Below, piece by piece: positions 14,389 through 56,385 of a stretch of DNA of 64,000 nucleotides (within the stretch, counting starts at the first letter, position 1; every line of letters begins with the position of its first letter). The stretch covers positions 1-64,000 of the forward strand of contig NZ_QOLD01000033.1 of assembly GCF_003333305.1 (NCBI RefSeq), given 5' to 3'. A program made the position numbers and the translations under genes. Under the pieces are notes generated by a model. The model did no database searches, was not told the origin of the DNA, and saw only the letters and a list, made by a program, of their open reading frames with translations. The stretch comes from Candidatus Colwellia aromaticivorans. Lineage in GTDB: Bacteria; Pseudomonadota; Gammaproteobacteria; Enterobacterales; Alteromonadaceae.

Positions 14389-15477
14389 ATGGATTATTAT
14401 TCTAAACCCAAGGACATCTCAGCCTTAGACGCAAAATTAGAAGCACAAAAAATTGCATTTTCCCCCATTGCCTTTCAAGCGGTAATGACACTGCTTAGAA
14501 CCAATATTTTGAAATACCTATCTGATACTGGTGAGCAAGGAGCTACGTCTAAACAGTTAGCTGAGCAATCAAAAATCTCTGAATACGGCGTTAAGGTATT
14601 ACTTGATATGGCGGCCTCTATGGGAGTCGTTTGGATTAAAAATGATGATACGTTTAGGCTAGATAAAATAGGTCACTTTATTGTTAATGATAAATTAACC
14701 TTAGCTAACATCAATTTTACCCAGGATGTTTGTTATCAAGGTATGTTTCACTTAGAAGAAGCGATCAGATCAGGCAAGCCTTCCGGATTAAAAGTATTTG
14801 GTGATTGGCCAACGATATATCCCGCTTTAACTTCACTGCCTGATAATGTTAAGAAAAGTTGGTTTGAGTTTGATCATTTTTATTCAGACCATTCATTCCC
14901 CGAAGTTATGCCTATTATTTTTGAAGATAAGCCACAATGTATTTTAGATGTTGGCGGAAATACCGGTAAGTGGACGTTGGCTTGTCTAAATTTTGATACT
15001 GATGTTCATATGGCCATTATGGACTTACCACAGCAATTAACCGTATTGCAGAGCAACGTCGCAGAGCAAGGCATGCTCGAACGAATAGAAGTTCATCCAA
15101 CGGATTTACTTGCAGCAGACGCTCAATTTTATCAAGGGGCTGATGTGATTTGGATGAGCCAATTCTTAGACTGCTTTTCACAAGAGCAAATCCTTGATAT
15201 TTTAAAAGGCGCGGTGAAAGTTATGACGCAAGATACTAGCTTATTTATTATGGAGACCTATTGCGATAGACAAAGATTTGAAGCTGCAACATATTGTATC
15301 AATGCAACATCACTGTATTTTACCGCCTTAGCAAATGGAGATAGCCGAATGTATCATTCAGGTGATTTCATCAAGTTAATTCAAAAAGCGGGCCTATATG
15401 TAGAGAAAGACATTGACGATATTGGCTTAGGGCACACCTTGTTTAAATGCAGAAAGAATATGCGCATTACAGAATAG
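14389..15477 (+). CDS. SAM-dependent methyltransferase of the aryl polyene cluster
   Basis: A 362-residue class I methyltransferase of the O-methyltransferase-2 type. It has an N-terminal winged-helix dimerisation part (about residues 20-105, LAEQSKISEYGVKVLLDMAASMG) and a C-terminal Rossmann domain with the SAM motif ILDVGGNTGKWT (about 185-196) and IMDLPQQ. Such a gene is a regular member of aryl polyene clusters (ApeB in E. coli), where it may methylate the aryl head; C- or O-methylation cannot be decided here. It faces the main operon on the opposite strand and shares a two-way terminator with it, so it can be controlled separately. Confidence 0.82.
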   Translation: MDYYSKPKDISALDAKLEAQKIAFSPIAFQAVMTLLRTNILKYLSDTGEQGATSKQLAEQSKISEYGVKVLLDMAASMGVVWIKNDDTFRLDKIGHFIVNDKLTLANINFTQDVCYQGMFHLEEAIRSGKPSGLKVFGDWPTIYPALTSLPDNVKKSWFEFDHFYSDHSFPEVMPIIFEDKPQCILDVGGNTGKWTLACLNFDTDVHMAIMDLPQQLTVLQSNVAEQGMLERIEVHPTDLLAADAQFYQGADVIWMSQFLDCFSQEQILDILKGAVKVMTQDTSLFIMETYCDRQRFEAATYCINATSLYFTALANGDSRMYHSGDFIKLIQKAGLYVEKDIDDIGLGHTLFKCRKNMRITE

Positions 15478-15511
15478 TCGTTCTACCTTTCGAACTTCAT
15501 ATTTTACACTA

Positions 15512-15553
15512 CTGTTTTTTGCATTTATCTTAAATTATAAATGCAAAAAACAG
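15512..15553. terminator. Bidirectional terminator between methyltransferase and apeR-like gene
   Basis: Perfect 17-nt arms CTGTTTTTTGCATTTAT (15512-15528) and ATAAATGCAAAAAACAG (15537-15553) flank an 8-nt loop, with A and T runs inside the stem. It lies between two convergent genes (stops at 15477 and 15581) and probably ends both transcripts. Confidence 0.8.
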
Positions 15554-15580
15554 TTAGGTAACCAACTTCAACAGTTCGTT

Positions 15581-16810
15581 CTATAAACCCTGCCAACGCT
15601 TAAAAATCAATGAGGTATTTATACCACCAAAAGCAAAATTATTACTCATTACATAATTTGTCTTTAATGTTCTTGCCTGTCCTTGAATATAATCCAGTGG
15701 TGCACAGTCGCTATCAATGCTTTCAAGGTTTAACGTTGGTGCAAACCAGTTATCTGTCATCATATTGATACTTGCCCACGCCTCAATAGCGCCACAAGCG
15801 CCCAAGGTATGACCTAAATAGCTTTTAAGTGAACTGATAGGGATTTCACCAAAAATGCTATGAGTTGCAAGTGACTCGGCAATATCGCCTTTTTCAGTAG
15901 AAGTACCATGAGCATTAACGTAACCAATATCTTCAGGTGATAGCTGGGCATCATCTAATGCCAAACGCATAGCTCGTTCCATAGTTTCAGCGGTTGGTTG
16001 AGTTACGTGTTTACCGTCAGCATTGGTACCAAAGCCGACGAGTTCAGCTAAGATAGTTGCGCCTCTTGCCTGTGCATACTCAAGATCTTCAAGAATAAAA
16101 GTACAGGCCCCCTCACCAATGACTAATCCATCACGTTTATTGTCAAATGGCCTTGGCGTAGTGTTTGGAAGTTCATTTTTCAAGCTTGTGGCAAATAACG
16201 TATCAAAAACAGCGACACTGGATAAACACAATTCTTCTGCACCACCGGCAACCATTGCTTTTTGCTTACCAAACTTAATTGCTTCATAGGCATAACCAAG
16301 CCCTTGTGATGAAGAGGTACACGCTGAACTTGTGGTAATGGTTCTTCCCTTTAAGCCGAAGAAAATACCAACATTAACGGGTGTTGTATGAGCCATCATT
16401 TTGATATAACTAGTGGCAGTAAGACCATCCATATTGTTATCTTTAAGTAAATCGCCAAAAGCGGGAATAGGCTCAGGTGATCCCATACAAGAGCCATAAG
16501 AAATACCTATATCACCACTTGTTAATCGCTCACTCCCTAATAATCCTGCTTGAGTTAATGCCTCTTCAGTGACTTGAGTTGCCATTATCGACACTTTACC
16601 CATAGAGCGTATTTGCTTACGTTTATAATGCTTTGGCGTTTGGTAAAGCGGAACAGGTGCTGCTAAGTTAGTATTTAAACCCGAAACCTTTCGCCACTCT
16701 GGCATATTAACCACAGCATTTTCGCCTTTTTCAAGAGCGACTTTAAAACTGTCCCAACAATTACCTAAGGCTGTGATCGCAGAAATTCCGGTGATAACAA
16801 CTCTTTTCAT
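15581..16810 (-). CDS. apeR: Beta-ketoacyl-ACP synthase, ApeR-like
   Basis: A 409-residue FabF/FabB-type condensing enzyme with the complete Cys-His-His triad: C164 in SSACTSSSQG, H301 in NAHGTSTEKGD and H334 in LGHTLGACGA. It extends acyl-ACP chains with malonyl-ACP. In E. coli aryl polyene clusters the last gene (apeR) is such a synthase, and the order O-P-Q-R is kept here. Its ATG overlaps the apeQ-like stop (TAATG), so translation is coupled. The symbol rests on position and family. Confidence 0.88.
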   Translation of the reverse strand: MKRVVITGISAITALGNCWDSFKVALEKGENAVVNMPEWRKVSGLNTNLAAPVPLYQTPKHYKRKQIRSMGKVSIMATQVTEEALTQAGLLGSERLTSGDIGISYGSCMGSPEPIPAFGDLLKDNNMDGLTATSYIKMMAHTTPVNVGIFFGLKGRTITTSSACTSSSQGLGYAYEAIKFGKQKAMVAGGAEELCLSSVAVFDTLFATSLKNELPNTTPRPFDNKRDGLVIGEGACTFILEDLEYAQARGATILAELVGFGTNADGKHVTQPTAETMERAMRLALDDAQLSPEDIGYVNAHGTSTEKGDIAESLATHSIFGEIPISSLKSYLGHTLGACGAIEAWASINMMTDNWFAPTLNLESIDSDCAPLDYIQGQARTLKTNYVMSNNFAFGGINTSLIFKRWQGL

Positions 16811-17544
16811 TATGCTAATCCCCCATTAACTGAAATAGTTTGTCGGGTAATATACGCGGCATCATCCGACATCAAAAACGACACAGTACCAGCAACTTCT
16901 TCAGGTTTTCCCATACGTTTAAGTGGGATCATTTTTAATATTTCAGTCACGGGTAACTCTTCTGTCATTTCAGTATCGATTAAACCAGGGGCGACACAAT
17001 TTACCGTGATTTTTCGCTTCGCCAACTCTAAAGAGAGTGCTTTTGTCGCGCCAATAAGTCCCGCCTTGGCTGCACTGTAATTAACCTGTCCTCGATTACC
17101 GATAATGCCAGAAACAGAGGAAAGCGTTACGATCCTGCCACCTTTTCGAGTTTGAATCATTGGCATCACCGTTGGGTGTACCACATTATAAAAGCCATCT
17201 AAGCCTGTTCTAATAACACTATCCCAATCTTCACCTGTCATAGCAGGAAAAGCAGTATCCTTGGTTAAACCGGCATTACACACTACGCCATAATAAGCGC
17301 CATTTTCAGTGATATCATGGTCAATTATTGCTTTAACTTGCTCTCTATCACAAACATCAAATTGTAGAATATTTGCCGTTCTACCTATTGCTTCTACTTC
17401 TCGTGCAGTTTCTTGAGCGCGTTCGATACTATTGAGGCAATGAACAGTTATATTGAAGCCATCTTTTGCTAAACGTAATGCAATCGACTTTCCGATGCCT
17501 CGGCTTGAACCTGTCACTAATATTCTTTTACTCATATCACCCAT
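16810..17544 (-). CDS. apeQ: 3-oxoacyl-ACP reductase (FabG family), ApeQ-like
   Basis: A 244-residue short-chain dehydrogenase with the NADPH-binding GSSRGIGKS near residue 12, a catalytic Ser in SSVSG and the YSAAK Tyr-Lys pair. The C-terminus TISVNGGLA is FabG-like. It reduces the 3-keto group in each polyene extension round. An alternative ATG three codons in (17535) is possible. It lies between the ApeP- and ApeR-like genes, 25 nt after the former. Confidence 0.9.
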   Translation of the reverse strand: MGDMSKRILVTGSSRGIGKSIALRLAKDGFNITVHCLNSIERAQETAREVEAIGRTANILQFDVCDREQVKAIIDHDITENGAYYGVVCNAGLTKDTAFPAMTGEDWDSVIRTGLDGFYNVVHPTVMPMIQTRKGGRIVTLSSVSGIIGNRGQVNYSAAKAGLIGATKALSLELAKRKITVNCVAPGLIDTEMTEELPVTEILKMIPLKRMGKPEEVAGTVSFLMSDDAAYITRQTISVNGGLA

Positions 17545-17569
17545 CTCGCTTCATTCCTAAACTAAACTT

Positions 17570-18031
17570 TTACTGTTTTTCACTCATCCCAACAAAATCT
17601 TGTGGCTCTGGAGGTAAAAAAACATTCACCTGTGCGCTAGCTATCATGCACTCTTGGTTTAAAATTTCACAACTATATACACCAAGCCCTGAGGACTCTT
17701 TGTGTAATTCAACAATTTTTACTTTTAAATGACTACCATTTTTAAAATAGTTTTGCGTCTGCTGGTATTTTCTTGAGCCTAATAGAAATCCTATTTGCAC
17801 TGGTTTCCCCTGCTCTAACGCTTTAGCCCCTGCAAAAGCAGCAATTGACTGAGCCATATATTCAATACCGATATAAGCGGGCACTCCAGACTTATCTGTC
17901 TGATAAAAAGCTGAGTGTTCGTCAATATCAAGCCAACACGTGGCCGACTCATTATTAAAGTCGTCTAAACCGCCAATGAGGATCATTGGCTCACGATGGG
18001 AGATAAGCTCGTTAATAGGGTATTTATTCAA
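17570..18031 (-). CDS. apeP: Hotdog-fold 3-hydroxyacyl-ACP dehydratase, ApeP-like
   Basis: A 153-residue single-hotdog protein. The ApeP family pattern is clear: HREPMILI near the N-terminus, with the probable catalytic His12, and GIEYMAQSIAAFAG, with the probable acidic partner. It would dehydrate 3-hydroxyacyl-ACP to the enoyl form, leaving the double bonds of the polyene because no enoyl reductase is in the cluster. It starts with TTG at 18031 inside the last codons of the ApeO-like gene (8-nt overlap). Confidence 0.87.
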   Translation of the reverse strand: MNKYPINELISHREPMILIGGLDDFNNESATCWLDIDEHSAFYQTDKSGVPAYIGIEYMAQSIAAFAGAKALEQGKPVQIGFLLGSRKYQQTQNYFKNGSHLKVKIVELHKESSGLGVYSCEILNQECMIASAQVNVFLPPEPQDFVGMSEKQ

Positions 18032-19214
18032 AACTAGTTCCTAATATTAGACTGATATTACTGCCTCCAAAAGCAAAAGAGTTAGATAGACACATTGATA
18101 AGCTATCTACTGATTCACCTGAGCTTACATTAAAGCTATTCAATGTCGGGTCAATATTGCCATTGTTCTTATTCTCAGGAATAAGTCGTTTTGTATTTTC
18201 TTTACTTAACAGCAACCAAGTTAACCCCGCTTCAATTGCTCCTGCCGCGCCTAATGTATGACCTGTAAACCTTTTGGTTGAACCGGCCAAAACTTCATGC
18301 TGACAAAATGCGGAAACAGCCTTAGCTTCCATATCATCATTTTTGGGCGTGCCTGTACCATGTAAATTTAGGTAATTTAGCTGCTCTGCTGAAATATTTG
18401 CATTTTCAACCGCTTGTTTCATTGAAGATAACGCACCAACCCCTTCAGGCTCCGGCGCTGAAACATGATAGGCATCAGATGATTCACCCACAGACAACAG
18501 CTTAATATCATCTTTAGTCTGACTCATAACAAACAGTGCTGCACCTTCGCCAATATTAATACCATCACGCTCACTACCAAACGGATTACAATAAGATTTG
18601 GCGGTAGACTCAAGTGATTTAAAGCCATTACTTGGTAATTGACTTAAGGTATCAACACCACCACAAATAACGATATCAGCCAAGTCACTTTCGAGTATCA
18701 TTTTAGCGCTATGTAAAGCTTTAGCACTTGAGCTACAAGCGGTAGAAATACTATAAACCGGACCTTGAGCGTCTACTTTACTGGCAATAAATTGCGCTGG
18801 AGCAATCATTTCTTGGCTCGAGTAATGAAAGGCTTGGGGCATATCACCTGTCGCTAACAATGACGCTCTTGCTTGCTCTCCTTCTAAAATGCCAGAAGTA
18901 CTTGTCCCTATTACCACACCAATTCGGGCAGAATTCTTTTGTGCTTTTAACCGCTCTATTGTTGGCATTATTTGAATTAATGCAGCAAGCGCTAATTGAT
19001 TATTGCGACTGTTAAAGTGACTTTCTTCATTGTCCATCGATGGCAGTTCACCATTTACTTGACCCACATATAAAGGCTCGCCATTAACCAATAAACGGGT
19101 ATTAAAAGATAAAAACTCTTCATCCGTTTGCGTGGTCAAATTTTTCAGTACACTATTTTTATCTGTGCCCAGTGAGCAGATAATACCTAAATCATGAAGG
19201 CTTGCCGCTAACAT
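18024..19214 (-). CDS. apeO: Beta-ketoacyl-ACP synthase, ApeO-like (elongating KS)
   Basis: A 396-residue condensing enzyme with C160 in STACSSSAKA, H285 in NLHGTGTPKND and H319 in FTGHTLGAAGA, so it should be active. In the E. coli aryl polyene system the ApeO ketosynthase works as a heterodimer with the chain-length factor ApeC. The matching factor here is encoded at 31257-32000. It lies 4 nt after the DUF3261 gene and overlaps the next gene. Confidence 0.88.
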   Translation of the reverse strand: MLAASLHDLGIICSLGTDKNSVLKNLTTQTDEEFLSFNTRLLVNGEPLYVGQVNGELPSMDNEESHFNSRNNQLALAALIQIMPTIERLKAQKNSARIGVVIGTSTSGILEGEQARASLLATGDMPQAFHYSSQEMIAPAQFIASKVDAQGPVYSISTACSSSAKALHSAKMILESDLADIVICGGVDTLSQLPSNGFKSLESTAKSYCNPFGSERDGINIGEGAALFVMSQTKDDIKLLSVGESSDAYHVSAPEPEGVGALSSMKQAVENANISAEQLNYLNLHGTGTPKNDDMEAKAVSAFCQHEVLAGSTKRFTGHTLGAAGAIEAGLTWLLLSKENTKRLIPENKNNGNIDPTLNSFNVSSGESVDSLSMCLSNSFAFGGSNISLILGTSFE

Positions 19215-19218
19215 TGTA

Positions 19219-19785
19219 TTACTCCATAGGTAAAATGGTTAACTGATAACCACGTTGAAAGTGCTTGTAACTAATGCTATCAGTACCTTTGACAATACTT
19301 ATGATTAAATTACCATCTGATTTAATTATTCGCTCTTTACCATTTTCGTTTTCTGTAATTACCGCATCTGTAAGCGCTGCATTTAATGCGGCTAAAGGCC
19401 AATACACTAATTGAATATCTGAAATGATATACGGCAGAGGTAACATATCAAACTCAACATATTTCTTTTGTTTCAGTGCCTGCCCTTCTACAAAAACCAG
19501 CTCAAATAAAGGTAAACCTTGTGGGGAAACAGCCACTAAATTTAGCCCTTGTTCGGTTAGCTCTAACTGCGTCAGTAATTGATTTTCTTTACCCTGATAG
19601 GTAATGGTTAACAGCTGGTTTTTTGATTGATTAACCAATGAGCCTGGTGGTGCAGTTAATTGCAATGTCACAGCCTCAGCAATATCCACTTGATTAACGT
19701 TATTCTGGTTAACGCCAACATTTGAGTTGCTACTACAGCCACAAAGCATGAACACTAGCGCGGCAAGCATTAATTTTACTGACAT
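19219..19785 (-). CDS. DUF3261 family lipoprotein
   Basis: A 188-residue lipoprotein. A short signal peptide ends in the lipobox LCGC (C17), followed by SSNSN. The mature part fits DUF3261, with a lipid-binding-like beta architecture: LVNQSKNQLLTITYQGKENQLLTQLEL and FELVFVEGQALKQKKY. Such lipoproteins sit in aryl polyene clusters next to the LolA-like and MMPL genes and probably help place the product in the outer membrane. Its start lies inside the end of the flavoprotein gene (10-nt overlap). Confidence 0.82.
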   Translation of the reverse strand: MSVKLMLAALVFMLCGCSSNSNVGVNQNNVNQVDIAEAVTLQLTAPPGSLVNQSKNQLLTITYQGKENQLLTQLELTEQGLNLVAVSPQGLPLFELVFVEGQALKQKKYVEFDMLPLPYIISDIQLVYWPLAALNAALTDAVITENENGKERIIKSDGNLIISIVKGTDSISYKHFQRGYQLTILPME

Positions 19786-21011
19786 AGCGCTACCAATGTT
19801 TTAAAACGTCTTTCACTTTGTGCGACATAAGGGTTACTTTGATCCCAAGCGTAGCCCGCTAAAATTGAACTAATCATAGCTTTTACTTTGGTATCTTGAT
19901 CTTGGTAAAAAATCACATCTTGAAAACCAGATTCATACCATGAATTTACAAAAGTTTTAAAGCAATCTACACCCTTTTTGAGCGGCACCGCAAAGCTTTG
20001 TTCAAAATCAACCGATTCACCATCAAGGTAACGTAATACTTGTGGAGCAATTAATACTGCAGAGCAAAGCGCAATGGTAACCCCTGAAGAAAATACAGGG
20101 TCTAGAAACTCTCCTGCATTACCTAATAAGGCATAATTTTTAGCGGCTAAATGTGTTACATCAGCTGAGTATCCGGCTAACTTATTGACTTCATTGTGCC
20201 ATTTTGCCTTTTTTAATAAGTTGTGTAAATTTGGAGCAGCATGAATAAAGTGCTTCAATATCATTTCAGGAGTGTCACCTTGAGAAAACTGCTCAGGTTT
20301 TCCGACTACGCCAACGCTTGAAGTCCCATCTGAAAAGGGGATTAGCCAATACCAGATGTCTGAATCATTAGGGTTTACTGTGATCAATATCTTGTCACGA
20401 TCAAAGTTACAGCACTCAATATTGTCTTCAACGTGAGTAAAATATGAAGTACGGGTTGGCAGGTGTGATGGCTTTTCTAACGATAACATACGCGGTAAAA
20501 CGCGTGCAAAGCCACTGGCATCAAGTAAAAATTTACTTTCGACTTGGTATAAGCTGCCTTGTTCATCTAATACTTCTAATATTGGGCAAAGACAATCAAC
20601 ATCAACCGTTTTCACTTCATGACCATACCTAATTTGTGCGCCGGCATCTGCAGCACCATCAGCTAATACTTTATCGAAACTTGCGCGCTTCACTTGGTAT
20701 GTTGTACCCGGTCCTTTTGAGAATTTCTGAGTAAAATTAAACTCAGTATCTTGGCCTTGCTTATGAAATGCTGCGCCGTTTTTAAACTGAAAGCCATTTT
20801 CTTTTGCATTGTCGTGCACTGTTTGCTCTAAACCCGCTTGTGCAAGAAACGCCATGCATTGTGGTAAAAGGCTTTCTCCGATTGAAAAACGGGGAAAATA
20901 CTGCTTTTCGATAACTAGTACACTTCGCCCTGCACGAGCAAGCATCGCTGAAGCAACGGCTCCCGATGGTCCCGCACCAATAATTACTACATCAAATTGT
21001 TCTTTATTCAC
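19776..21011 (-). CDS. FAD-dependent oxidoreductase with halogenase-type motif
   Basis: A 411-residue flavoprotein with GAGPSGAVASAMLARAG (residues 12-28) for FAD, GESLLP after it and a second FAD site GNAGEFLDPVFSSG. Residues 220-225 are WYWLIP, fitting the WxWxIP motif of flavin-dependent halogenases. Lys77 in FQFKNGAAF lies where those enzymes keep a catalytic lysine. It could halogenate the aryl head of the pigment, as in brominated xanthomonadins, or be a reductase or desaturase of the same superfamily. It starts with GTG in a GTGA overlap with the MMPL gene. No flavin reductase gene is nearby. Confidence 0.8.
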   Translation of the reverse strand: MNKEQFDVVIIGAGPSGAVASAMLARAGRSVLVIEKQYFPRFSIGESLLPQCMAFLAQAGLEQTVHDNAKENGFQFKNGAAFHKQGQDTEFNFTQKFSKGPGTTYQVKRASFDKVLADGAADAGAQIRYGHEVKTVDVDCLCPILEVLDEQGSLYQVESKFLLDASGFARVLPRMLSLEKPSHLPTRTSYFTHVEDNIECCNFDRDKILITVNPNDSDIWYWLIPFSDGTSSVGVVGKPEQFSQGDTPEMILKHFIHAAPNLHNLLKKAKWHNEVNKLAGYSADVTHLAAKNYALLGNAGEFLDPVFSSGVTIALCSAVLIAPQVLRYLDGESVDFEQSFAVPLKKGVDCFKTFVNSWYESGFQDVIFYQDQDTKVKAMISSILAGYAWDQSNPYVAQSERRFKTLVALCQ

Positions 21012-23299: not shown

Positions 23300-23317
23300 A
23301 CACTTCCCTATTTGTCG

Positions 23318-23947
23318 CTATAATTCTTTATTGTAAGAGATTGATATTTCGGTTCTATTCATGTTTTTATCAAATAACACAAACTCATCAACCTGCTTAT
23401 CACCACATAATATTATTTGTTCAATAAAGGCTGTCATTGACGATGTTTTTGGCTTCAAAGTCACACAATTAGCAGTATTGTTATCATCATAGAAAGCAAA
23501 ACTATTTGTTAGCGCAGTGAAGTTACCCGCTATTAAGTGTTGTAATAATTGCGCAATGGTACTAGCTTGAGCAGGCGCCTTTTTACTGCCAGAGTTATCT
23601 TTAAAGTAAAGTTCACCGTTATTAAAGGTAATGGCACTCTCTACAGGTTTACGTGTTTTCCAAATAAATTCATCATTGGATATCACAAAGTTACCAGACG
23701 ATAAAAATGGCTTTTTTAAGACTTTAAAATATTTTCTTTGAATAAAATCGCCTTGTTGACTGACGAAACCACCTTGATTAATCTGTAACCGGTTTTCAAC
23801 CTGTTCAACGGATAGTGACACTTTATCAGCTGAGGTAGTAGGTATTACTGTATTATCGGCAATGGCTGAATTAATCGAAAAAAGAGAAAAAACGCAGTAA
23901 AAAAGAACAAATAAATGACTAGCCATTTTAGCAAATGAAATATTCAT
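23318..23947 (-). CDS. apeL: LolA-like periplasmic carrier protein
   Basis: A 209-residue protein with a signal peptide ending near INSAIA|DNTV. The pattern QGDFIQRKYFKVLKKPFLSSGNFVIS and EFIWKTRKPVESAITF is that of LolA-type lipid carriers with an open beta-barrel. In aryl polyene clusters it likely carries the product across the periplasm. It is coupled to the thioesterase gene before it (TAATG) and precedes the MMPL gene by 18 nt. Confidence 0.84.
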   Translation of the reverse strand: MNISFAKMASHLFVLFYCVFSLFSINSAIADNTVIPTTSADKVSLSVEQVENRLQINQGGFVSQQGDFIQRKYFKVLKKPFLSSGNFVISNDEFIWKTRKPVESAITFNNGELYFKDNSGSKKAPAQASTIAQLLQHLIAGNFTALTNSFAFYDDNNTANCVTLKPKTSSMTAFIEQIILCGDKQVDEFVLFDKNMNRTEISISYNKEL

Positions 23948-24372
23948 TACAGTACCTTAGTTAGTTTATCTAACAATACTTTAGGACTCGTATATTGCAT
24001 TTCTTGATTACTTCTATCGACTGCTACTTGTACCGTTGATGCTTTAGTCAGTTTCTCACCTGTTTTACTATCAAAAATTAAATAATCAATTTTCAAACAA
24101 GTTTCATACTCTTTTAAATAGGCAGTCACCTTGATTTTTTGAGTAAAGACTGCCGAGCCAATATACTTAATGCGCATATCAACAATGGGCCATAGATAAC
24201 CGGAGTCATCCATAGCAAGGTAATCGTAATCAAATTGTCTTAATAATTCACAGCGTGCCACTTCAATATAACGTGCATAATTACCATGCCACACCACTTG
24301 CATTGGATCACAGTCGTGAAACGGTATTTCAATGTCTACTTCTGCGGTTAACAATGCATTTTTGCTATTCAT
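23947..24372 (-). CDS. apeK: 4HBT-family acyl thioesterase, ApeK-like
   Basis: A 141-residue single-hotdog thioesterase with the classic HDCDPMQVVWHGNYARYIE motif, whose first Asp is probably catalytic. The family hydrolyses aryl- or acyl-CoA and -ACP. In this pathway it could release the chain or proofread the carrier proteins. I use the ATG at 24372, which overlaps the ammonia-lyase stop; the in-frame TTG at 24405 would add residues with no family match. Confidence 0.86.
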   Translation of the reverse strand: MNSKNALLTAEVDIEIPFHDCDPMQVVWHGNYARYIEVARCELLRQFDYDYLAMDDSGYLWPIVDMRIKYIGSAVFTQKIKVTAYLKEYETCLKIDYLIFDSKTGEKLTKASTVQVAVDRSNQEMQYTSPKVLLDKLTKVL

Positions 24373-25906
24373 AAAGTTTCCAGCGCTGTGTTTGTATCGC
24401 GTCAATGGTATAACGTAAGTCAGACTCCAATGGTCTGTCTTCCACTAAGGTTTCAAAGTTTTCAGCTACGTCGTCATACATTTCCATCAAATTTGGCGAT
24501 AAGGTATCGTGATCCAACTCACCACTTTTAATACGAATTCTTAGGGCTTGTACGGCAGCTAATAAGGTACTTGCTAATACTTGCTCAGTTAGTTGCATTA
24601 CACGTAAAGCATCTCTTGCAGCGATGGTGCCCATACTCACTTTATCTTGATTGTGACATTCTGTTGAGCGTGAGAATACACTTGCTGGCATCGTTAATTT
24701 CAATGCTTCAGCGGTATAAGCTGAGGCTCCGATTTGTACGGCTTTGAACCCGTGGTTAATAAATCTACGCTCGTCACAACTTGCCGATAAATTTGACGGT
24801 AAACCATTGTTATAACGGGTATCAACTAATGAGGCAATTTGCCTATCGGCTAAATCTGCTAAGTTAGCAACGACAGTTTTCATGCTATCCATAACCATGG
24901 CAATATGTCCACCATAAAAATGTCCACCATGTAAAACATGCTCACCAATGCCGTCGATTATTGGATTATCATTCGCTGAATTAAGTTCGTTTTCTATCAT
25001 ACTTCTAAAGAATGGCAGACTGTCTTGCAACACTCCTATGATGTGTGGAGCGCAACGAATAGAGTAGCGATCTTGTAATCTATCTGAATTTCTTGGGTGT
25101 TCATAATGATTTAAATCTTGACGAATCCAAGCCGCAATTTGCCCTTGCCCTGGATGTGGTTTCACCGAAAACAAAATATCATCAAAATGATGACTATTGC
25201 CTTGCAGCGCAAGACTAGATAGTGCGGTAATACGGCTGGCCAACTTAGCCAAATACTCAGCGCGATCGTAAGCTAAACATGAAAGTGCTGTCATCACAGC
25301 AGTACCGTTCATTATCGCTAAACCTTCTTTAGGTCTAAGCGTAATTGGTGTTAATCCTTCCTGCGCCATAACAATATTACTGGATTTAATTTCACCTTTA
25401 AACAATACATCTCGTTCGCCAATGAGTGCTCCGGCAACGTATGAAAGTGGCGTCAAATCGCCACTTGCGCCTACTGAGCCTTCTTGAGGAATAACAGGGA
25501 TAATATCTTGGTTAATAAATTCGACCAGTAGATTAAGTAATTCCCAACTAACACCTGAGAATCCTTGGCTTAAAGAGGCAAGACGGGTAGCAAGTATTGC
25601 TCGACCCTCTGTTCGATTAAAAGCTTGGCCTAAGCCACAACCATGAAAACGTGTTAAGTGTAATGGTAATTCTTTAACGAGATCTAGGGGGATATTTACC
25701 GTTACCGAGTCACCATAGCCGGTAGTAACGCCGTATATCACGCCATCTTCTTTTAGAAGGGTGTCTAAAAATTCAAGCGCTGAATTAATCTTTTTACTAA
25801 AATGTTCATCATTGGTTAATTCAACTAATACATCTTGTTTTGATATGTTAACAATGTCTTCTATTGATAACCTATTTAAGCCAAAAATGGCAACTTGCTG
25901 ACTCAC
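24365..25906 (-). CDS. Aromatic amino-acid ammonia-lyase (HAL/PAL/TAL family)
   Basis: A 513-residue lyase. The MIO prosthetic group would form from Ala147-Ser148-Gly149 in GSVGASGDLTP. The catalytic Tyr58 is in YGVTTGYG. NDNPI, QDKVS and the helical C-terminal half are present. The substrate-selectivity pair that is Ser-His in histidine ammonia-lyases reads Phe87-His88 (RFHGCG). This argues against histidine and for an aromatic substrate such as tyrosine, giving 4-hydroxycinnamate. Its place in an aryl polyene operon fits supply of the aryl starter. It starts with GTG in a GTGA overlap with the acyltransferase gene. Confidence 0.9.
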   Translation of the reverse strand: MSQQVAIFGLNRLSIEDIVNISKQDVLVELTNDEHFSKKINSALEFLDTLLKEDGVIYGVTTGYGDSVTVNIPLDLVKELPLHLTRFHGCGLGQAFNRTEGRAILATRLASLSQGFSGVSWELLNLLVEFINQDIIPVIPQEGSVGASGDLTPLSYVAGALIGERDVLFKGEIKSSNIVMAQEGLTPITLRPKEGLAIMNGTAVMTALSCLAYDRAEYLAKLASRITALSSLALQGNSHHFDDILFSVKPHPGQGQIAAWIRQDLNHYEHPRNSDRLQDRYSIRCAPHIIGVLQDSLPFFRSMIENELNSANDNPIIDGIGEHVLHGGHFYGGHIAMVMDSMKTVVANLADLADRQIASLVDTRYNNGLPSNLSASCDERRFINHGFKAVQIGASAYTAEALKLTMPASVFSRSTECHNQDKVSMGTIAARDALRVMQLTEQVLASTLLAAVQALRIRIKSGELDHDTLSPNLMEMYDDVAENFETLVEDRPLESDLRYTIDAIQTQRWKLYE

Positions 25907-26895
25907 TTATTCTCTCCATTAGATTCGATACGGCTTACTTGCTCGTCTGTCTGCCAAAAGTCATAAAAATTAAACCATTGATAGGGGTACTTTACCGCGT
26001 AATGACTTAGCCGTTGTGCATATTTTTCTACAATTTCTTGTAATACCTGTGCACGTTGTTTCCTGGGCAAAGCTAACCTGTCAGTCACATGTTCAAAAAT
26101 CAAGTTAAAGCGCCCTTTTGATTTAAAACAAAATATCCAATAGATTGGACATTCTAACAAAGCAGCCAGAATAAATGGACCTTGAGCAAATGGTGCCTTT
26201 TTACCTAAAAATGGGGCATATATAACTCTACCACCAATGCTGATACTGGTTCTATCACCGACGATAACAATGGCTTCGCCTTGTTCAACTTTTTCTTTAA
26301 GCACAACAGCCAGTCCTGGACCAATATCACCAACTTGGATCAGATTTACCGTCACTTTATTGTTTACTTTTTCTAATAATTTATTAAATTTAACTGCATT
26401 ATCGGTAAAAACTAACACATTAATAACAACATCATCTTTCATGGTACTTAAGGCTCGACATACCTCTAGGTTACCTAAATGAGAGCCTATAAAAATCCCG
26501 CCTTGTTTTTGTTCTACCAGCTCTTTAATTCCGTTTCTATCAAGGTAATCAATATCATTTTCGCTGACTCTACCTAGCCAAGCATCGAGTTTATCAAATA
26601 CCGAATCAGCAAAACTGCAGTGAAGTTTTAACCCATGCCAGAAACCAGCCCTTTCTCTCTGACCATTTTCATCATGTAAGGCTCTTGCTAAGAACTGAAG
26701 CGAAGCATGACGAGCGACTTTATTAACGATATATAAATAACAAACAACAGGGAATAACACTAGCCACAATATACGTCTGCCAACAAGACGATAGAAAGCA
26801 AATAATATTCGCATACCTAAAATAGAGCCACGTTCTTCTAGCGTCGACCAATGTTGGTTTTGAGCTTCTTTTTCTTTAATTGTTGGTTTAGACAT
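25903..26895 (-). CDS. LpxL/HtrB-like lipid acyltransferase
   Basis: A 330-residue protein with an N-terminal membrane segment (about residues 40-60) and the LPLAT motif GSHLGNLEVCRAL (HxxxxE form), then GDRTSI and FILAALLECPIYW. It should acylate a lipid or sugar anchor. In E. coli the matching function is, as far as I recall, fused to a glycosyltransferase (ApeJ); here it is a separate gene overlapping the GT2 gene by 1 nt (TAATG). Its role in joining the polyene to a lipid anchor is inferred from context. Confidence 0.83.
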   Translation of the reverse strand: MSKPTIKEKEAQNQHWSTLEERGSILGMRILFAFYRLVGRRILWLVLFPVVCYLYIVNKVARHASLQFLARALHDENGQRERAGFWHGLKLHCSFADSVFDKLDAWLGRVSENDIDYLDRNGIKELVEQKQGGIFIGSHLGNLEVCRALSTMKDDVVINVLVFTDNAVKFNKLLEKVNNKVTVNLIQVGDIGPGLAVVLKEKVEQGEAIVIVGDRTSISIGGRVIYAPFLGKKAPFAQGPFILAALLECPIYWIFCFKSKGRFNLIFEHVTDRLALPRKQRAQVLQEIVEKYAQRLSHYAVKYPYQWFNFYDFWQTDEQVSRIESNGENK

Positions 26896-27623
26896 TAGCA
26901 GAAGTGACGAAAAATAAGTTTGGGGGCTCTGAACAACATACCAAAAAACAATCGTGTATGCATCCAGCTTATGCGAGCATTGTCTTCAAACGCTCTAAAA
27001 TGCGATATACCAAATTCAGGATAAATAACTTTTGTTGGTAAAAACTTAACATCAATACCTTGCCAATATAAGCGCACCATAATTTCAGTATCAAAGTCCA
27101 TACGTTTACCTAAGTTAACCTTATTCATTAACTCAATACTTTGACCAACTGGGTATACGCGAAAGCCGCACATACTGTCTTTTAATTGAAAAGATAAGGT
27201 TTCAATGTATACCCAAAAGTGGGTAATAAAGCGAGCAAAATAGCGGTGCTTAGGAATTGATTCATCGTACACTGGTTTACCAGAAATGAGTGCATCAGGA
27301 TGTTGTTTAGATAACGCGATTAATGACGTAATATCGGCAAGATTATGTTGGCCGTCGGCATCGACTTGGATAGCATATTCAAAGCCAAGCTTATGCGCGT
27401 ATTTTAAACCTGTTTGCACCGCAGCGCCCTTGCCTTGATTTTCGCTATGGTGAATCAGGGTAAGTAAGGGCACTTTATCGACAAGTGATTCAAAAAGCTT
27501 TTTTGCCGATGCTTTACTGCCATCATCAATCATAATAATAGAAAATTCATAGGCCGATAAACGCAATAATAACACCTCTAACTCATGAGTATGATTGTAA
27601 TTAGGAATAATCAAACAGTACAT
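26895..27623 (-). CDS. Family 2 glycosyltransferase (dolichol-P-mannose synthase-like)
   Basis: A 242-residue GT-A enzyme starting MYCLIIPNYNHTHEL, with the nucleotide-sugar site DDGSKASAK, the metal-binding QVDADGQHN and the acceptor-side GFRVYP. There is no clear membrane anchor. It likely puts a sugar on the lipid anchor of the pigment. ATG at 27623 or GTG at 27626 could start it; GAGGA lies 6 to 9 nt upstream. It overlaps the dehydratase stop before it and the acyltransferase start after it. Confidence 0.85.
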   Translation of the reverse strand: MYCLIIPNYNHTHELEVLLLRLSAYEFSIIMIDDGSKASAKKLFESLVDKVPLLTLIHHSENQGKGAAVQTGLKYAHKLGFEYAIQVDADGQHNLADITSLIALSKQHPDALISGKPVYDESIPKHRYFARFITHFWVYIETLSFQLKDSMCGFRVYPVGQSIELMNKVNLGKRMDFDTEIMVRLYWQGIDVKFLPTKVIYPEFGISHFRAFEDNARISWMHTRLFFGMLFRAPKLIFRHFC

Positions 27624-28015
27624 CACAAGGTTTCCTCAAGTGCGGCTTCTTCTAACATTGTTTCTTCTAAAAGAATGCGGCCACTAGCGTGCACTCCTTT
27701 TTCTGAATGATATTCAAATAAAAATTTATGGTCCGATTTACGTATTAACGACAAGTCTACAATTTGATCTGCATGGATTATTTCTTTAAATTTAAGGACT
27801 TCAACTTGTCTAACTACAGTAGACGATAATTTTAAATGTTCATGGGCGAAATTAACGGCCCAATTTAATTGCACTACACCTGCAAGGATAGAAACATTGG
27901 GAAAATGCCCTTTAAAGTAATCTAAGCTCGCTTGTACTTTGAAGGTCAATTTGACCCCTTCACCAATAATTTCTTTCTTGATAAATAACGGCTGGGTTTC
28001 TTGCAATTTATTCAA
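27623..28015 (-). CDS. apeI: Hotdog-fold dehydratase, ApeI-like
   Basis: A 130-residue FabZ-like protein with FKGHFPNVSILAGVVQLNWA; His37 is the probable catalytic His. The acidic residue that FabZ keeps a few positions later is not obvious (QLNWA), as in other ApeI-type proteins. ApeI and ApeP are the two dehydratases of the system. Start is TTG at 28015, inside the end of the AMP-ligase gene. The C-terminal tail is a run of Glu, Leu and Thr and may be disordered. Confidence 0.85.
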   Translation of the reverse strand: MNKLQETQPLFIKKEIIGEGVKLTFKVQASLDYFKGHFPNVSILAGVVQLNWAVNFAHEHLKLSSTVVRQVEVLKFKEIIHADQIVDLSLIRKSDHKFLFEYHSEKGVHASGRILLEETMLEEAALEETL

Positions 28016-29396
28016 AAAGTTTCTCCAATTCTCTTTGTACTAATTTTCCCTGAGAATTATAAGGTAATTCGGTTAAGTAACGCCATTTTTTCGGTAAACA
28101 AACCAACTCAAACTTACCTAATAAGTGATTTTTAATCTCACGGGTAAACGCGATAGTGGTTAGCTCATCTCGTTTAACTAAACCAAGTTCAGTTAAACTT
28201 AACACGGCAAACAGCACATCTCGCTTGCCTGTTTTTAATAAAATTCGAGATTCATTTATCCAACAGTGTTCATTTGCAACTTGTTCCATAGCGGATAAAT
28301 TGACCCGTTTTTCTTCTAATTTTACATTACGGTCTATACGCCCTTGTAATGTGAACTCAGTAGCCGACGTTAACTCGCCCATGTCATCTAATAGCATTGA
28401 TGAATCTGACACCCAGGGTGATTGTAATATTAGCCTTTTGCTTTGCGCTTCTACGCTTAAGGTAATACCTTTAAATGTCTGCCAATGCGATGCTGGCAAA
28501 GAGTCAACTTGGCGATAGGCAATACCACCGGTTTCTGTACTGCCGTAAACTTGGGTGATAGGAAAATCTAGTTGTTGATTTAAATGAATCGCAATGTCAT
28601 CGGCAAGCAAACCGCCGGATGAAAATATATAACTAAAGTGATTAGAATACGCAGCCAAAACATTGTCATTTATCAAGCGTTTTAAAAATGCAGGACTAGA
28701 AATTAATGCTACCTTTTTGTCACTCTGCAATGCTGATTTTACATGCTCAGGATACTCAAAGGTATCAGATATTAACGTACCGTTAGATAAAGGCCATAGC
28801 AAACGAAAAAGCAGGCCGTAAATATGCTGATGAGAAACCGTGGCAATCAATTTTTCGTAACGCTTTATGTTAAATACGTTTTGTAACTGAGCGAGTTCTA
28901 AATTAATTTGTTGCCATGACTTATGAATAATCTTTGCATCCCCTGTTGAACCAGAGGTAGAGAAATAAAGGTCTCCAGAGTCAGGCCAACTAAAACCCGA
29001 TGTTGAATTTAGCTGCGGATTATCGCTTTTTCTTTCGAAATCAACGGACTCTATACTTGGAAAAGTGATTTCATGACCAAGTTCACCAGAAAATGCATCT
29101 GTCGTTGCAAAGAGCGAATCAAGTGTTTGTATTTGGCTATTACTTGGAAAGTATACGTCAATTGACTCAGCACTTAAGGCAAATAACCGTATTGAAAATT
29201 GGTAAGTATCGCTGTGATACAAGACTACTTTAAGTGGCGTATTTATTAACTGATTCGCACTACTCTGTGCTTTTTTAAAGTTCCGAATCTTGGCTCGATA
29301 ATGGTTAATATCAATGATAAATTCGTTGAGGGATATATCATTACCGTTAAGAAAAAATAGTCTGTGCGAGTTGGCCAGATGCGTTAAATCAAACAC
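28008..29396 (-). CDS. apeH: AMP-dependent acyl/aryl-ACP ligase, ApeH-like
   Basis: A 462-residue adenylate-forming enzyme. The P-loop is STSGSTGDAKIIHKSW, the adenine motif YGSTETGGIAYR, and the C-terminal Lys motif LPYNSQGKLVQREL. It would activate the aryl acid and load it on a carrier protein; with the lyase downstream, 4-hydroxycinnamate is the simplest substrate guess. It is about 50 residues shorter than CoA ligases, typical of this subfamily. GTG start, 8-nt overlap with the membrane-protein gene. Confidence 0.87.
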   Translation of the reverse strand: MFDLTHLANSHRLFFLNGNDISLNEFIIDINHYRAKIRNFKKAQSSANQLINTPLKVVLYHSDTYQFSIRLFALSAESIDVYFPSNSQIQTLDSLFATTDAFSGELGHEITFPSIESVDFERKSDNPQLNSTSGFSWPDSGDLYFSTSGSTGDAKIIHKSWQQINLELAQLQNVFNIKRYEKLIATVSHQHIYGLLFRLLWPLSNGTLISDTFEYPEHVKSALQSDKKVALISSPAFLKRLINDNVLAAYSNHFSYIFSSGGLLADDIAIHLNQQLDFPITQVYGSTETGGIAYRQVDSLPASHWQTFKGITLSVEAQSKRLILQSPWVSDSSMLLDDMGELTSATEFTLQGRIDRNVKLEEKRVNLSAMEQVANEHCWINESRILLKTGKRDVLFAVLSLTELGLVKRDELTTIAFTREIKNHLLGKFELVCLPKKWRYLTELPYNSQGKLVQRELEKLFE

Positions 29397-29952
29397 TTTT
29401 CTTCCGCCCTGCTTTTACTTTCCAGCGTACCAACCACTCTACTGACATTAACGTGCCCATTAAGATGTAAGAAATAAGGCCATTGTATAAGGTCCATTGA
29501 GCTATCGATGAATACAGTGCAGTGTAAAGCGCAATACTGCCATTTATACTAAAAAACAAGCACCATACCCATGTCACTTTTTCAGTATATTTAACGGCAA
29601 AATCATCGAGCTCTGGCTCTTGAAGTCGTGCTAAAGTTTCTATGACACTTGGCTTTTGATACAAAGAATAGGAAAAAATGCAAAGTAACCCTAGATTCAT
29701 AGCGACAGGATAGAGTAAAACACCGATAGCTTGGTCAAAAACTACCGAAAACAGCAGTACTGAAATAGCCATGACTGAGGTTAATTTCAACCACGGCTGT
29801 TTGCTTTTAGAATTTGTTGCCAACCGCAGAGAAAAAACACCTATAAGCGCAACAGCAACATAGCGAGGCTCAAAATAGTTAAGCCCCGTATAGACAATGA
29901 TTGGATAAAAAATTAACAGTAGAGCGATCAACGCTGTGGTAAGTGTTTTCAC
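29389..29952 (-). CDS. apeG: COG4648-type integral membrane protein, ApeG-like
   Basis: A 187-residue inner-membrane protein with five or six hydrophobic helices and the conserved cytosolic loop LARLQEPELDDFAVKYTEKVTW. It matches the COG4648 membrane proteins of aryl polyene clusters, which older databases often mislabel as gyrase. Its function is unknown; it may help assemble the product at the membrane. It starts with GTG and lies 40 nt after the second ACP gene. Confidence 0.82.
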   Translation of the reverse strand: MKTLTTALIALLLIFYPIIVYTGLNYFEPRYVAVALIGVFSLRLATNSKSKQPWLKLTSVMAISVLLFSVVFDQAIGVLLYPVAMNLGLLCIFSYSLYQKPSVIETLARLQEPELDDFAVKYTEKVTWVWCLFFSINGSIALYTALYSSIAQWTLYNGLISYILMGTLMSVEWLVRWKVKAGRKKSV

Positions 29953-29992
29953 TAGTATTGGCTTTTAATTGCTTTTTTCTGTTAGTTAAGCG

Positions 29993-30241
29993 CTATACGC
30001 TCAGTAACTTTGATAATTCGTCGATTATATCGTTAACTGTTCTTACTTTTTTAAAGGCATCTGGTTCTATTTTTTGACCAGTGAACGCTTTAAGTTTAAC
30101 AATGAGATCTATAGCATCAATGCTGTCTAAGTCTAAATCTTCATATAAATTTGCCGTCAATGAGATATCTTCTGGTTCAATCTCAAAATCATCGATAAAT
30201 ATTGTCGATAAAGTGTTGTATATTTCTTCTCTAGATTGCAT
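29993..30241 (-). CDS. apeF: Acyl carrier protein, ApeF-like
   Basis: An 82-residue acidic carrier protein. The phosphopantetheine Ser is in DLDLDSIDAIDLIV (Ser40). I start it at the ATG at 30241 (MQSREEIYNTLS), which has GGA 7 nt upstream. The ATG at 30253, just after the previous stop, is the alternative. Aryl polyene clusters carry two ACPs in tandem, as here. Confidence 0.88.
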   Translation of the reverse strand: MQSREEIYNTLSTIFIDDFEIEPEDISLTANLYEDLDLDSIDAIDLIVKLKAFTGQKIEPDAFKKVRTVNDIIDELSKLLSV

Positions 30242-30255
30242 TTTTAGATCCATTA

Positions 30256-30510
30256 CTACTGATTTGTCTCAATAAACTCTGATAAGCTATTGATTGAGCT
30301 GAAATGTTTTTTCGTTTCTTCTGAATTAGCATCAATTTTTATATTGAATGTTTTCTTAATTGCTAAACCTAATTCAAGTGCGTCAATGCTATCTAAGCCA
30401 AGGCCATCAACAAACAACGCTTCATCATCTTGTATATCTTCTATACTCACATCTTCTAAATCAAGCGTTTCAATAATTAAAGCTTTGATCTTAGCTTTTA
30501 AGTCTGACAT
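30256..30510 (-). CDS. apeE: Acyl carrier protein, ApeE-like
   Basis: An 84-residue acidic carrier protein with the attachment site GLGLDSIDALELG (Ser41). It holds the growing chain for the KS/CLF pair. It overlaps the end of the acyltransferase gene by 20 nt and is followed by the second ACP after a few bases, so the two should be made in similar amounts. Confidence 0.9.
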   Translation of the reverse strand: MSDLKAKIKALIIETLDLEDVSIEDIQDDEALFVDGLGLDSIDALELGLAIKKTFNIKIDANSEETKKHFSSINSLSEFIETNQ

Positions 30511-31264
30511 TACTTTCTAATTCCTTGTTATAAAATTGTTCAAGCTCACGTGTATATATTCTAGATAGTAAACTTATTGGAGCTTCTTCTTGTGCTTTAG
30601 GCATTGGGACTGCAGGCATCAAATTCAAATCAACTTGAAATTTTCGCACAGGTACTCGATACCACTTTTCATTTTTCGTTAATGTGGTCGGATTTATCTT
30701 TAGCTTAAAACATTGGATAGGCGATCCACACCTAATAACAATATTAGCAACACCTCGCTTAAATTTTAATGGCATATTGGGTGTTGTTCTTGTTCCTTCA
30801 GGAAAAATTATTAAGTTATTTCCTTGTGCCAATGAGTCTCGACAATCTTCAATTAATTGTTCCGCATTATCATTACTGATGTAACCTGTATTACTAAGAA
30901 CACCTCTGATAAAAGGGTTTTTAAACAAGTTTGCTTTCACAATACACACTGCATTGGGTATAACTGAAATCAATAATACCACATCTATTAAAGATGGGTG
31001 ATTACAAATAACTACAGTTCCTCGAAAATCACTGAGTTTTCGACGATTTTTCACGGTAAAATGAGATGTTTTTGTAAATTGCATAATACCAATAAACAAC
31101 TTGGTTGCGTATTGTACTGTTTTTCTTGATTGCTGTTGTGCTGCCAGTGTGTCTTTGCAGAATACTCTTTGAAGTGGCAAAATTAAGATTGTTAGTACTA
31201 AACCACCCAGTGCAAATATAGTAAAACATAAGCCAGTTGCAAATATACGCCATAACTTATTCAT
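30491..31264 (-). CDS. apeD: PlsC-type 1-acylglycerol-3-phosphate acyltransferase, ApeD-like
   Basis: A 257-residue acyltransferase. An N-terminal hydrophobic helix (about residues 10-30) is followed by motif I NHPSLIDVVLL (HxxxxD) and motif III FPEGTRTTP. In E. coli apeD takes this position. It may acylate the polyene or its glycerol/sugar anchor. It overlaps the chain-length-factor gene by 8 nt. Confidence 0.86.
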   Translation of the reverse strand: MNKLWRIFATGLCFTIFALGGLVLTILILPLQRVFCKDTLAAQQQSRKTVQYATKLFIGIMQFTKTSHFTVKNRRKLSDFRGTVVICNHPSLIDVVLLISVIPNAVCIVKANLFKNPFIRGVLSNTGYISNDNAEQLIEDCRDSLAQGNNLIIFPEGTRTTPNMPLKFKRGVANIVIRCGSPIQCFKLKINPTTLTKNEKWYRVPVRKFQVDLNLMPAVPMPKAQEEAPISLLSRIYTRELEQFYNKELESNVRLKS

Positions 31265-32000
31265 TGTTTAACCTGTTAATTTTCCATTGATTAGCAACCA
31301 TATCTAACTCTTGAGGTTTTGTCATATCACTTAACCATCGATAAAATGACACTGCCTGCGGAAGCTCAGTTAGGCTGTCATCTGATGTAACACTGATATT
31401 GTTATATTTCTTGATTGAAAGCCTCTGCCCAACAAAGTTATCTTTAGTTAAAATTAAGGCGACTGCATGGTCTACTTGTAACTCATCAGCATATTGTGAA
31501 TAAGGGCTTGGCAGAACCTGATCACTATGTACCAAAAGTACTTGCTCGTGTTTACCCGTTTTCAATCGTATGTAAGCTTCGACTAATGCCATGAAAAAGG
31601 TATCTTTCCCTGCGGAAACCGTAGTAGATGCTTGAGTGTTTTGCGTGAAAATTGTAAAAAGGCCTGAAACGGCATTATGCACTGACAAACTAAATGCTGT
31701 TGGAGAGATATCTTCCTCCAAAGCTAAGTCATGGAGCATGGTAGAGGTTTTATGAAGATCACCATGACGCGATGAAAATACACTGACCAAAGGTTGGTTT
31801 TCATGTTTTGTTACTTCTAAAGCACAATACATGGCTAACTTAGCAAAGGGACTTAGACGTCTCCGCTGCATTGGTTTTAAATCGGCTAATTTTGGTAATT
31901 CAGCTTTACTAAAAGACCTTTCCTGATGGCCATCAAGGTTAATGACCGGATTTACAGCTTCAATAGCGACTATTTTTTTTATATTTATACAAAAATCCAT
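31257..32000 (-). CDS. apeC: Beta-ketoacyl synthase-like chain-length factor, ApeC-like
   Basis: A 247-residue truncated thiolase-fold protein of the chain-length-factor family. The segment where active synthases keep Cys reads STTVSAGKDTF, with no cysteine, so it cannot condense on its own. It should pair with the ApeO-like synthase. The start is the ATG at 32000 (MDFCINIKKIV), which matches family N-termini; an ATG at 32030 would add ten unmatched residues. This is the first gene of the 19-gene operon. Confidence 0.85.
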   Translation of the reverse strand: MDFCINIKKIVAIEAVNPVINLDGHQERSFSKAELPKLADLKPMQRRRLSPFAKLAMYCALEVTKHENQPLVSVFSSRHGDLHKTSTMLHDLALEEDISPTAFSLSVHNAVSGLFTIFTQNTQASTTVSAGKDTFFMALVEAYIRLKTGKHEQVLLVHSDQVLPSPYSQYADELQVDHAVALILTKDNFVGQRLSIKKYNNISVTSDDSLTELPQAVSFYRWLSDMTKPQELDMVANQWKINRLNNE

Positions 32001-56230: not shown

Positions 56231-56385
56231 TGAGTTTACCTTATGTATTTGTCCTTTCCTTAATGATATTACATCGTTATACCCATGTGAATTCAAAAAT
56301 AAAAGTGTTTATCAACTGAACAAAATGTTTGATTTATGCCATAATATTCGGCTGTTATTTTTTGCGCATAAATTAGTGGATAAAA

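Follow-up and report, generated by a model that had tools for sequence, protein, structure and literature searches.

We analyzed a window of 64,000 nucleotides (nt) from Candidatus Colwellia aromaticivorans (contig NZ_QOLD01000033.1, positions 1 to 64,000) and found, at positions 14389 to 32030, a gene cluster for an aryl polyene (APE), a known type of yellow membrane pigment. Judged from its sequence, the locus is very probably a complete, and probably a functional, APE operon of a subtype that carries an ammonia-lyase and a halogenase-like flavoprotein. This high confidence refers to identification of the cluster and not to each step of the pathway; a pigment made by the present cluster is predicted. 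Marine Gammaproteobacteria and Acinetobacter commonly carry this subtype, of which the cluster is an ordinary member. The Escherichia coli cluster, when used as a yardstick, represents a form without lyase and flavoprotein, and these two genes mark a common APE subtype.

The open reading frame (ORF) listing places 19 successive genes on the minus strand, from 32030 down to 15581, in the order C-D-E-F-G-H-I-GT2-AT-lyase-K-L-M-flavoprotein-N-O-P-Q-R (AT, acyltransferase), and adjacent genes in this run overlap or are at most 40 nt apart. A methyltransferase ORF on the plus strand (14389-15477) is convergent to the run, with a gap of 103 nt. Both ORFs and gene families bear out an earlier note on this DNA, which had described 19 same-strand genes with such overlaps or gaps in APE order; its view that the APE cluster is complete also agrees with synteny to E. 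coli CFT073. The block it had delimited (14389-32000) is real, but its true end is 32030, not 32000. The convergent methyltransferase said to close the block is correctly placed; however, it is an ApeB/FlxJ relative (49% identity to ApeB) and therefore a member of the cluster rather than an extra gene. Most gene labels of that note agree with the matches to Pfam and NCBIfam families. We assigned families with Pfam and NCBIfam models and their cut-offs, and counterparts by tblastn (threshold 1e-4) against the cluster region of E. coli CFT073, which was read by coordinates. The genes are listed below; identities are to E. coli proteins.

14389..15477, plus strand: ApeB/FlxJ-family S-adenosylmethionine (SAM) methyltransferase (NF053543 FlxJ, 500 bits, cut-off 560; 49% to ApeB)
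15581..16810, minus strand: ApeR-like ketosynthase (PRK09116, 701.6 bits, cut-off 470; 59% to ApeR)
16810..17544, minus strand: ApeQ ketoreductase, FabG2 (TIGR01831, 402.8 bits, cut-off 338.85; 62%; Ser-Tyr-Lys motif)
17570..18031, minus strand: ApeP dehydratase, hotdog fold (PF22817 ApeP-like, above cut-off; 26% to ApeP)
18024..19214, minus strand: ApeO ketosynthase (PRK09185, 457 bits, cut-off 407; 41% to ApeO; Cys160)
19219..19785, minus strand: ApeN-like DUF3261 lipoprotein (PF11659; position of the E. coli DUF3261 gene)
19776..21011, minus strand: halogenase-like flavoprotein (PF04820 Trp_halogenase, above cut-off; best solved relative 3nix, then halogenases)
21008..23299, minus strand: ApeM MMPL/RND transporter (24% to ApeM, in the matching position; HpnN and HAE3 weak, below cut-off)
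23318..23947, minus strand: ApeL LolA-like carrier (PF03548, just above cut-off; LolA2_flexi, 65 bits, cut-off 125)
23947..24372, minus strand: ApeK thioesterase, 4HBT (PF13279; 52% to ApeK)
24365..25906, minus strand: aromatic amino acid ammonia-lyase, tyrosine use predicted (PF00221, 533 bits)
25903..26895, minus strand: LpxL-like acyltransferase (38% to the C-terminal half of ApeJ; Pfam Lip_A_acyltrans just below cut-off)
26895..27626, minus strand: GT2 glycosyltransferase (PF00535; 57% to the N-terminal half of ApeJ)
27623..28015, minus strand: ApeI dehydratase (PF22818 ApeI-like, above cut-off; E. coli gene annotated hypothetical in the matching position)
28008..29396, minus strand: ApeH AMP-dependent ligase (PF00501; 32% to ApeH)
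29389..29952, minus strand: ApeG membrane protein (46% to ApeG over part of its length)
29993..30253, minus strand: acyl carrier protein (ACP), ApeF by position (PF00550; 49%; Ser attachment motif)
30256..30510, minus strand: ACP, ApeE by position (PF00550; 51%; Ser attachment motif)
30491..31264, minus strand: ApeD lysophospholipid acyltransferase (PF01553; 39% to ApeD; HX4D motif)
31257..32030, minus strand: ApeC, short, truncated chain-length factor (PF13723, 199 bits; 33% to ApeC)

The hallmark of APE clusters is present in that ApeO (PRK09185) and ApeC (PF13723) both scored above cut-off and both matched E. coli. ApeI, ApeP, ApeQ, ApeH and the ACPs also exceeded their model cut-offs (PF22818, PF22817, TIGR01831, PF00501 and PF00550, respectively), and a set for lipid attachment and Lol/MMPL export was found, comprising ApeD, GT2, acyltransferase, LolA-like and DUF3261 proteins and the ApeM-like MMPL protein. 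The ApeR-like ketosynthase contains Cys164, HGT at 301 and GHT at 333; a pattern search of ApeC found no Cys-Ser/Thr, HGT or GHT. No Pfam match was obtained for ApeM at E 0.001, and ApeG, which matched no Pfam or NCBIfam family, was assigned from its E. coli counterpart alone. The convergent methyltransferase is predicted to carry out C-methylation of the ring. The thioesterase ApeK probably starts at an internal ATG at about 24372 and not at the listed TTG.

Fifteen of the 20 window proteins, the methyltransferase included, matched the CFT073 cluster in order, and three more (ApeI, ApeL and ApeN) correspond by position only. These three had no tblastn match in the E. coli cluster, which weighs against the identification; each has a CFT073 gene in the matching position, annotated as LolA for ApeL and DUF3261 for ApeN. 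Lyase and flavoprotein were the other two proteins without a match. The CFT073 cluster runs from apeA to apeR, and the two clusters share gene set and order from apeB to apeR. However, the E. coli cluster is without lyase and flavoprotein, contains GT2 and acyltransferase fused as ApeJ (separate genes in the window) and has apeB upstream of apeC, in the orientation of its other genes, whereas this gene is convergent in the window. A nucleotide search of E. coli with apeO gave no match, such a search being too insensitive here.

Occurrence of this gene set elsewhere was assessed by scanning named genomes with the flavoprotein. At least 560 relatives were confirmed, and the best 80 were kept as loci (L numbers), picked by flavoprotein similarity via two peptide patterns covering Lys77 and EFLDPxF. 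At least three of nine scored core genes were present in 76 of these loci; the other four, which have fewer within the DNA covered, were kept in all counts. Some loci are clipped by contig or flank ends, so that some gene absences are not real, and L051 and L052 share one contig. The lyase was found in 66 of the 80 loci and lay between acyltransferase and thioesterase in 61, the flavoprotein lay between MMPL and ApeN or ApeO in 63, and both genes occupied exactly the positions seen in the window in 55. Among the genera that have both genes in place are Colwellia, Pseudoalteromonas, Shewanella, Thalassotalea, Acinetobacter and Comamonas, together with Corallococcus, the last according to record titles. 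Therefore, the claim of the earlier note that lyase and flavoprotein are additions to the core did not hold: the same two positions recur in these 55 loci and in annotated records of both Pseudoalteromonas and Acinetobacter. Its suggestions of a separate starter route and a modified aryl head are plausible for the subtype, but they are not peculiar to the present locus. Likewise, the subtype taken as a whole may make an undescribed product, although the locus itself is an ordinary member.

The closest named relative among the best 80 loci was Colwellia piezophila (L010; flavoprotein 86% and lyase 95% identical). Nineteen of the 20 genes have the same layout there, convergent methyltransferase included, and apeC falls beyond the DNA covered; thus, the layout of the cluster is not due to chance. 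Pseudoalteromonas records NZ_CP133572 and NZ_CP045419 (lyase identity 77% and 74%) contain the same genes in matching order, with lyase and flavoprotein each located as in the window; no methyltransferase match was found in the 33 kb examined of each. Acinetobacter baumannii CP035931 also has this order and both genes in the same places. It differs in that ApeH and ApeI matched within one annotated gene (L007:7735-9393), apparently a fusion, and that a phosphopantetheinyl transferase is annotated downstream; no methyltransferase match was detected in the stretch examined. In the Pseudoalteromonas and A. baumannii records, the lyase is annotated between acyltransferase and thioesterase, and a flavin adenine dinucleotide (FAD) oxidoreductase gene is flanked by those for the transporter and the DUF3261 protein. 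By tblastn, the flavoprotein was found in both the Cupriavidus and Caballeronia records (in Caballeronia downstream of ketosynthase genes), and no lyase match was found in either. A plasmid of Aureispira encodes a 39% identical flavoprotein relative, whose only neighbors among the query proteins are MMPL-like and acyltransferase-like.

Several loci were of note. Two titled Corallococcus (L067 and L071), a genus of myxobacteria, have the same cluster with lyase and flavoprotein, reflecting either transfer or contamination. A rearranged form, in which methyltransferase and flavoprotein lie together and divergent from an operon starting with apeC, was observed in three Vibrio loci, Grimontia and a metagenome-assembled genome of Shewanella (L053, L059, L062, L073 and L084). 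In Colwellia maritima (L033:5146-9957), lyase, thioesterase and MMPL each matched in two pieces, and no match was found for the ketoreductase, LolA or genes upstream of the lyase; this pattern suggests that the cluster is decaying or badly assembled. In addition, ApeH of the window (28008-29396) and its C. piezophila counterpart are only 65% identical, versus 74-95% for all other biosynthetic enzymes. Only the LolA protein (57%) is less similar, though ApeH is the enzyme that chooses the starter.

We also examined 394 genomes sampled evenly from the order to which the organism belongs, its own genome included. Co-occurrence was scored here at the level of genomes, not of positions, and with three different E-value cut-offs (ApeO-like ketosynthase, E at most 1e-65; lyase, 1e-120; flavoprotein, 1e-100). 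An ApeO-like ketosynthase was detected in 181 genomes. Among these, the lyase was present in 119 and the flavoprotein in 88; 82 had both genes and 56 had neither. Across the whole sample, lyase occurred without flavoprotein in 37 genomes and the reverse was true of seven; two genomes had a flavoprotein and no ApeO at the cut-off. Some ApeO-like matches may lie outside APE clusters, which should be counted against our interpretation. The observation that lyase and flavoprotein are separable across genomes implies that the flavoprotein is unlikely to be part of the starter route.

The function of the flavoprotein was approached with a structure model and a profile built from the window and 24 loci selected from the 80. 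The model had a mean predicted local distance difference test (pLDDT) score of 91.1. In the Foldseek and VIA-align tables, each listing 50 matches, the best structural match was 3nix from Cytophaga hutchinsonii (Z 51.9, root mean square deviation 1.9, 400 aligned residues). It was followed by halogenases ChlB4, PltA, Mpy16, Bmp2 (mutant and wild type), FasV, RadH and CndH (Z 42.9-37.6), and Foldseek gave the same leading matches. The profile search likewise placed halogenases directly behind 3nix, with other FAD enzymes much lower. The Lys and WxWxIP regions of the protein align with those of solved halogenases. GxGxxG, Lys77, WxWxIP and FLDPxFSSG were invariant in all 87 sequences of an alignment that comprised the window and 86 loci (L003-L008 and L010-L089, but neither L001, which represents the window, nor L002). 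Invariance of Lys77 and FLDPxFSSG is partly built in because the loci were retrieved with patterns that include Lys77 and EFLDPxF, and only GxGxxG and WxWxIP, absent from these patterns, provide an independent test. GxGxxG, an active-site Lys and WxWxIP are what we take to be the motifs of flavin-dependent halogenases.

Thus, in modeled fold and in motifs the flavoprotein resembles flavin-dependent halogenases, and on these two grounds we lean, by a narrow preference, toward the idea that it halogenates the ring. It is nevertheless quite possible that the enzyme is a hydroxylase or another FAD oxidoreductase that acts on the ring or the polyene. The closest solved relative, 3nix, speaks against halogenation in that it is titled only a flavoprotein/dehydrogenase, with no functional label. 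In addition, p-hydroxybenzoate hydroxylases share the fold, coming next at Z 36.1 and below (about 34-36) and ahead of halogenase CmlS (Z 33.9), and the NCBIfam halogenase model CmlS gave 138 bits, far under its cut-off of 900. Against a hydroxylase, the eight halogenase entries right behind 3nix (two of them Bmp2, wild type and mutant) all rank above the hydroxylases, the profile search gave the same ranking, and the motifs are invariant, although two of them were partly selected for.

Halogenase genes have been described for other pigments of this kind. According to the accessible text of one report, Xanthomonas clusters with a halogenase gene give brominated pigments, and Lysobacter clusters without the gene give non-brominated ones (PMC3691225); the text available on the arcuflavin cluster of Azoarcus mentions an annotated halogenase, arcA (PMC3949708). 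The xanthomonadin and arcuflavin clusters thus share a halogenase gene, likened here to the flavoprotein of the window by description and not by sequence. They differ in that their starter is described as coming from a XanB2-type chorismate enzyme, not from a lyase (PMC3691225, PMC3949708).

By analogy with flexirubin biosynthesis, the lyase probably makes 4-coumarate from tyrosine as the starter. Its Ala-Ser-Gly triad, which forms the methylidene-imidazolone (MIO) group, is at 147-149; of 70 aligned sequences, 69 have it and one is gapped there. At Phe87-His88, presumably the position that decides selectivity, the alignment column contains 60 Phe, 9 Tyr and one gap. In the flexirubin cluster of Chitinophaga pinensis, the starter enzyme is, like the window protein, an aromatic amino acid lyase; the text available to us describes this enzyme, FlxA, as a proven tyrosine lyase that supplies coumarate, with about 1010-fold higher specificity for tyrosine than for phenylalanine, and reports that it too departs from the tyrosine ammonia-lyase motif at the selectivity position yet prefers tyrosine (PMC3992019).

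Several observations count against a coumarate starter. None of the HutH, FlxA and BagA/FevW models, of which HutH scored best, reached its cut-off with the lyase, and the sequence therefore leaves its substrate unsettled; the top NCBIfam model for ApeH was 4-coumarate-CoA ligase, yet at 75 bits, far under its cut-off of 334.7; UbiC is encoded in the same genome, so that 4-hydroxybenzoate is also available as a starter; and 62 of the 181 ApeO genomes had no lyase at the cut-off, indicating that APE clusters can run without it. If the lyase used phenylalanine or histidine, the starter could be 4-hydroxybenzoate from UbiC, as in E. coli, a scheme for which UbiC, the HutH score and the lyase-free genomes all speak. 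We consider it unlikely: a cluster-embedded lyase is reported to make coumarate in the flexirubin system (PMC3992019), and the presence of the lyase with ApeO in 119 of the 181 genomes and inside the operon in 61 of the 80 loci would be hard to explain if it were unused. A role of the lyase in histidine catabolism was rejected. It is the only HutH-model match in the assembly, with no second one found, and this match, below cut-off, sits inside the APE operon.

Taking tyrosine as the substrate of the lyase, a pathway can be proposed. The ammonia-lyase would convert tyrosine to 4-coumarate, as FlxA does, and ApeH would load 4-coumarate onto an ACP. ApeO with ApeC would then extend the chain with malonyl units, ApeQ would reduce it and ApeI/ApeP would dehydrate it to yield the polyene; these polyene-building steps are as described, in the text available, for the E. 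coli and Xenorhabdus APE clusters (PMC8253772). ApeB would methylate the ring, and the flavoprotein would probably halogenate it. Finally, as others have proposed for E. coli, ApeK, ApeD and the GT2/acyltransferase pair would join the acid to a lipid, and ApeL, ApeM and ApeN would carry the lipid product to the outer membrane.

Two other interpretations concern the cluster as a whole. A recent acquisition of lyase and flavoprotein by an E. coli-type cluster, giving a locus-specific variant with a product of its own, is very improbable: the CFT073 cluster indeed has no counterpart of either gene, but 55 of the 80 loci, drawn from many genera, carry both genes in these positions, as do annotated records. 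Still harder to sustain is a flexirubin cluster, in which a polyene acid is esterified with a dialkylresorcinol; although methyltransferase and LolA-like protein match the flexirubin-named FlxJ and LolA2_flexi models below cut-off and the best solved relative of the flavoprotein is from Cytophaga hutchinsonii, E. coli ApeB likewise matches FlxJ below cut-off (470 bits, cut-off 560) and gene order is that of APE clusters. The flexirubin cluster of Chitinophaga pinensis shares with the window a methyltransferase of the family that NCBIfam names FlxJ, but it differs in having genes for the dialkylresorcinol ester. A search of the 101 contigs of the genome with the DarB model gave a best score of 19.9 bits against a cut-off of 550, DarA not being searched for, and sub-threshold DarB matches were also seen in 9 of 14 control genomes. 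The lack of any DarB above cut-off speaks against a resorcinol ester, and the flexirubin interpretation was disfavored on this basis.

For the APE subtype to which the cluster belongs, it is possible, though we say so tentatively, that its members in dozens of genera make APE lipids that start from coumarate and carry both a methyl group and a halogen on the ring, the halogen probably being bromine in the sea. In the literature searched, the only pigments of the aryl polyene type described as halogenated were xanthomonadins and chlorinated flexirubins. Should the flavoprotein prove to be a functional halogenase, halogenation of aryl polyenes would be much more widely distributed than this literature suggests. 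None of the titles and abstract openings surveyed, whose coverage of subscription journals was incomplete, describes an APE subtype with lyase and halogenase. One study reports ape clusters in Pseudoalteromonas, some alongside a resorcinol cluster, and the word "halogenase" is absent from its main text, as far as that text was accessible (PMC9966250).

Outside the cluster, AT skew peaked at 0.246 in the segment 54001-56000, and the second-highest value in the window was less than half of that. This segment lies over a CitMHS/Na_sulph_symp transporter gene (54881-56296).

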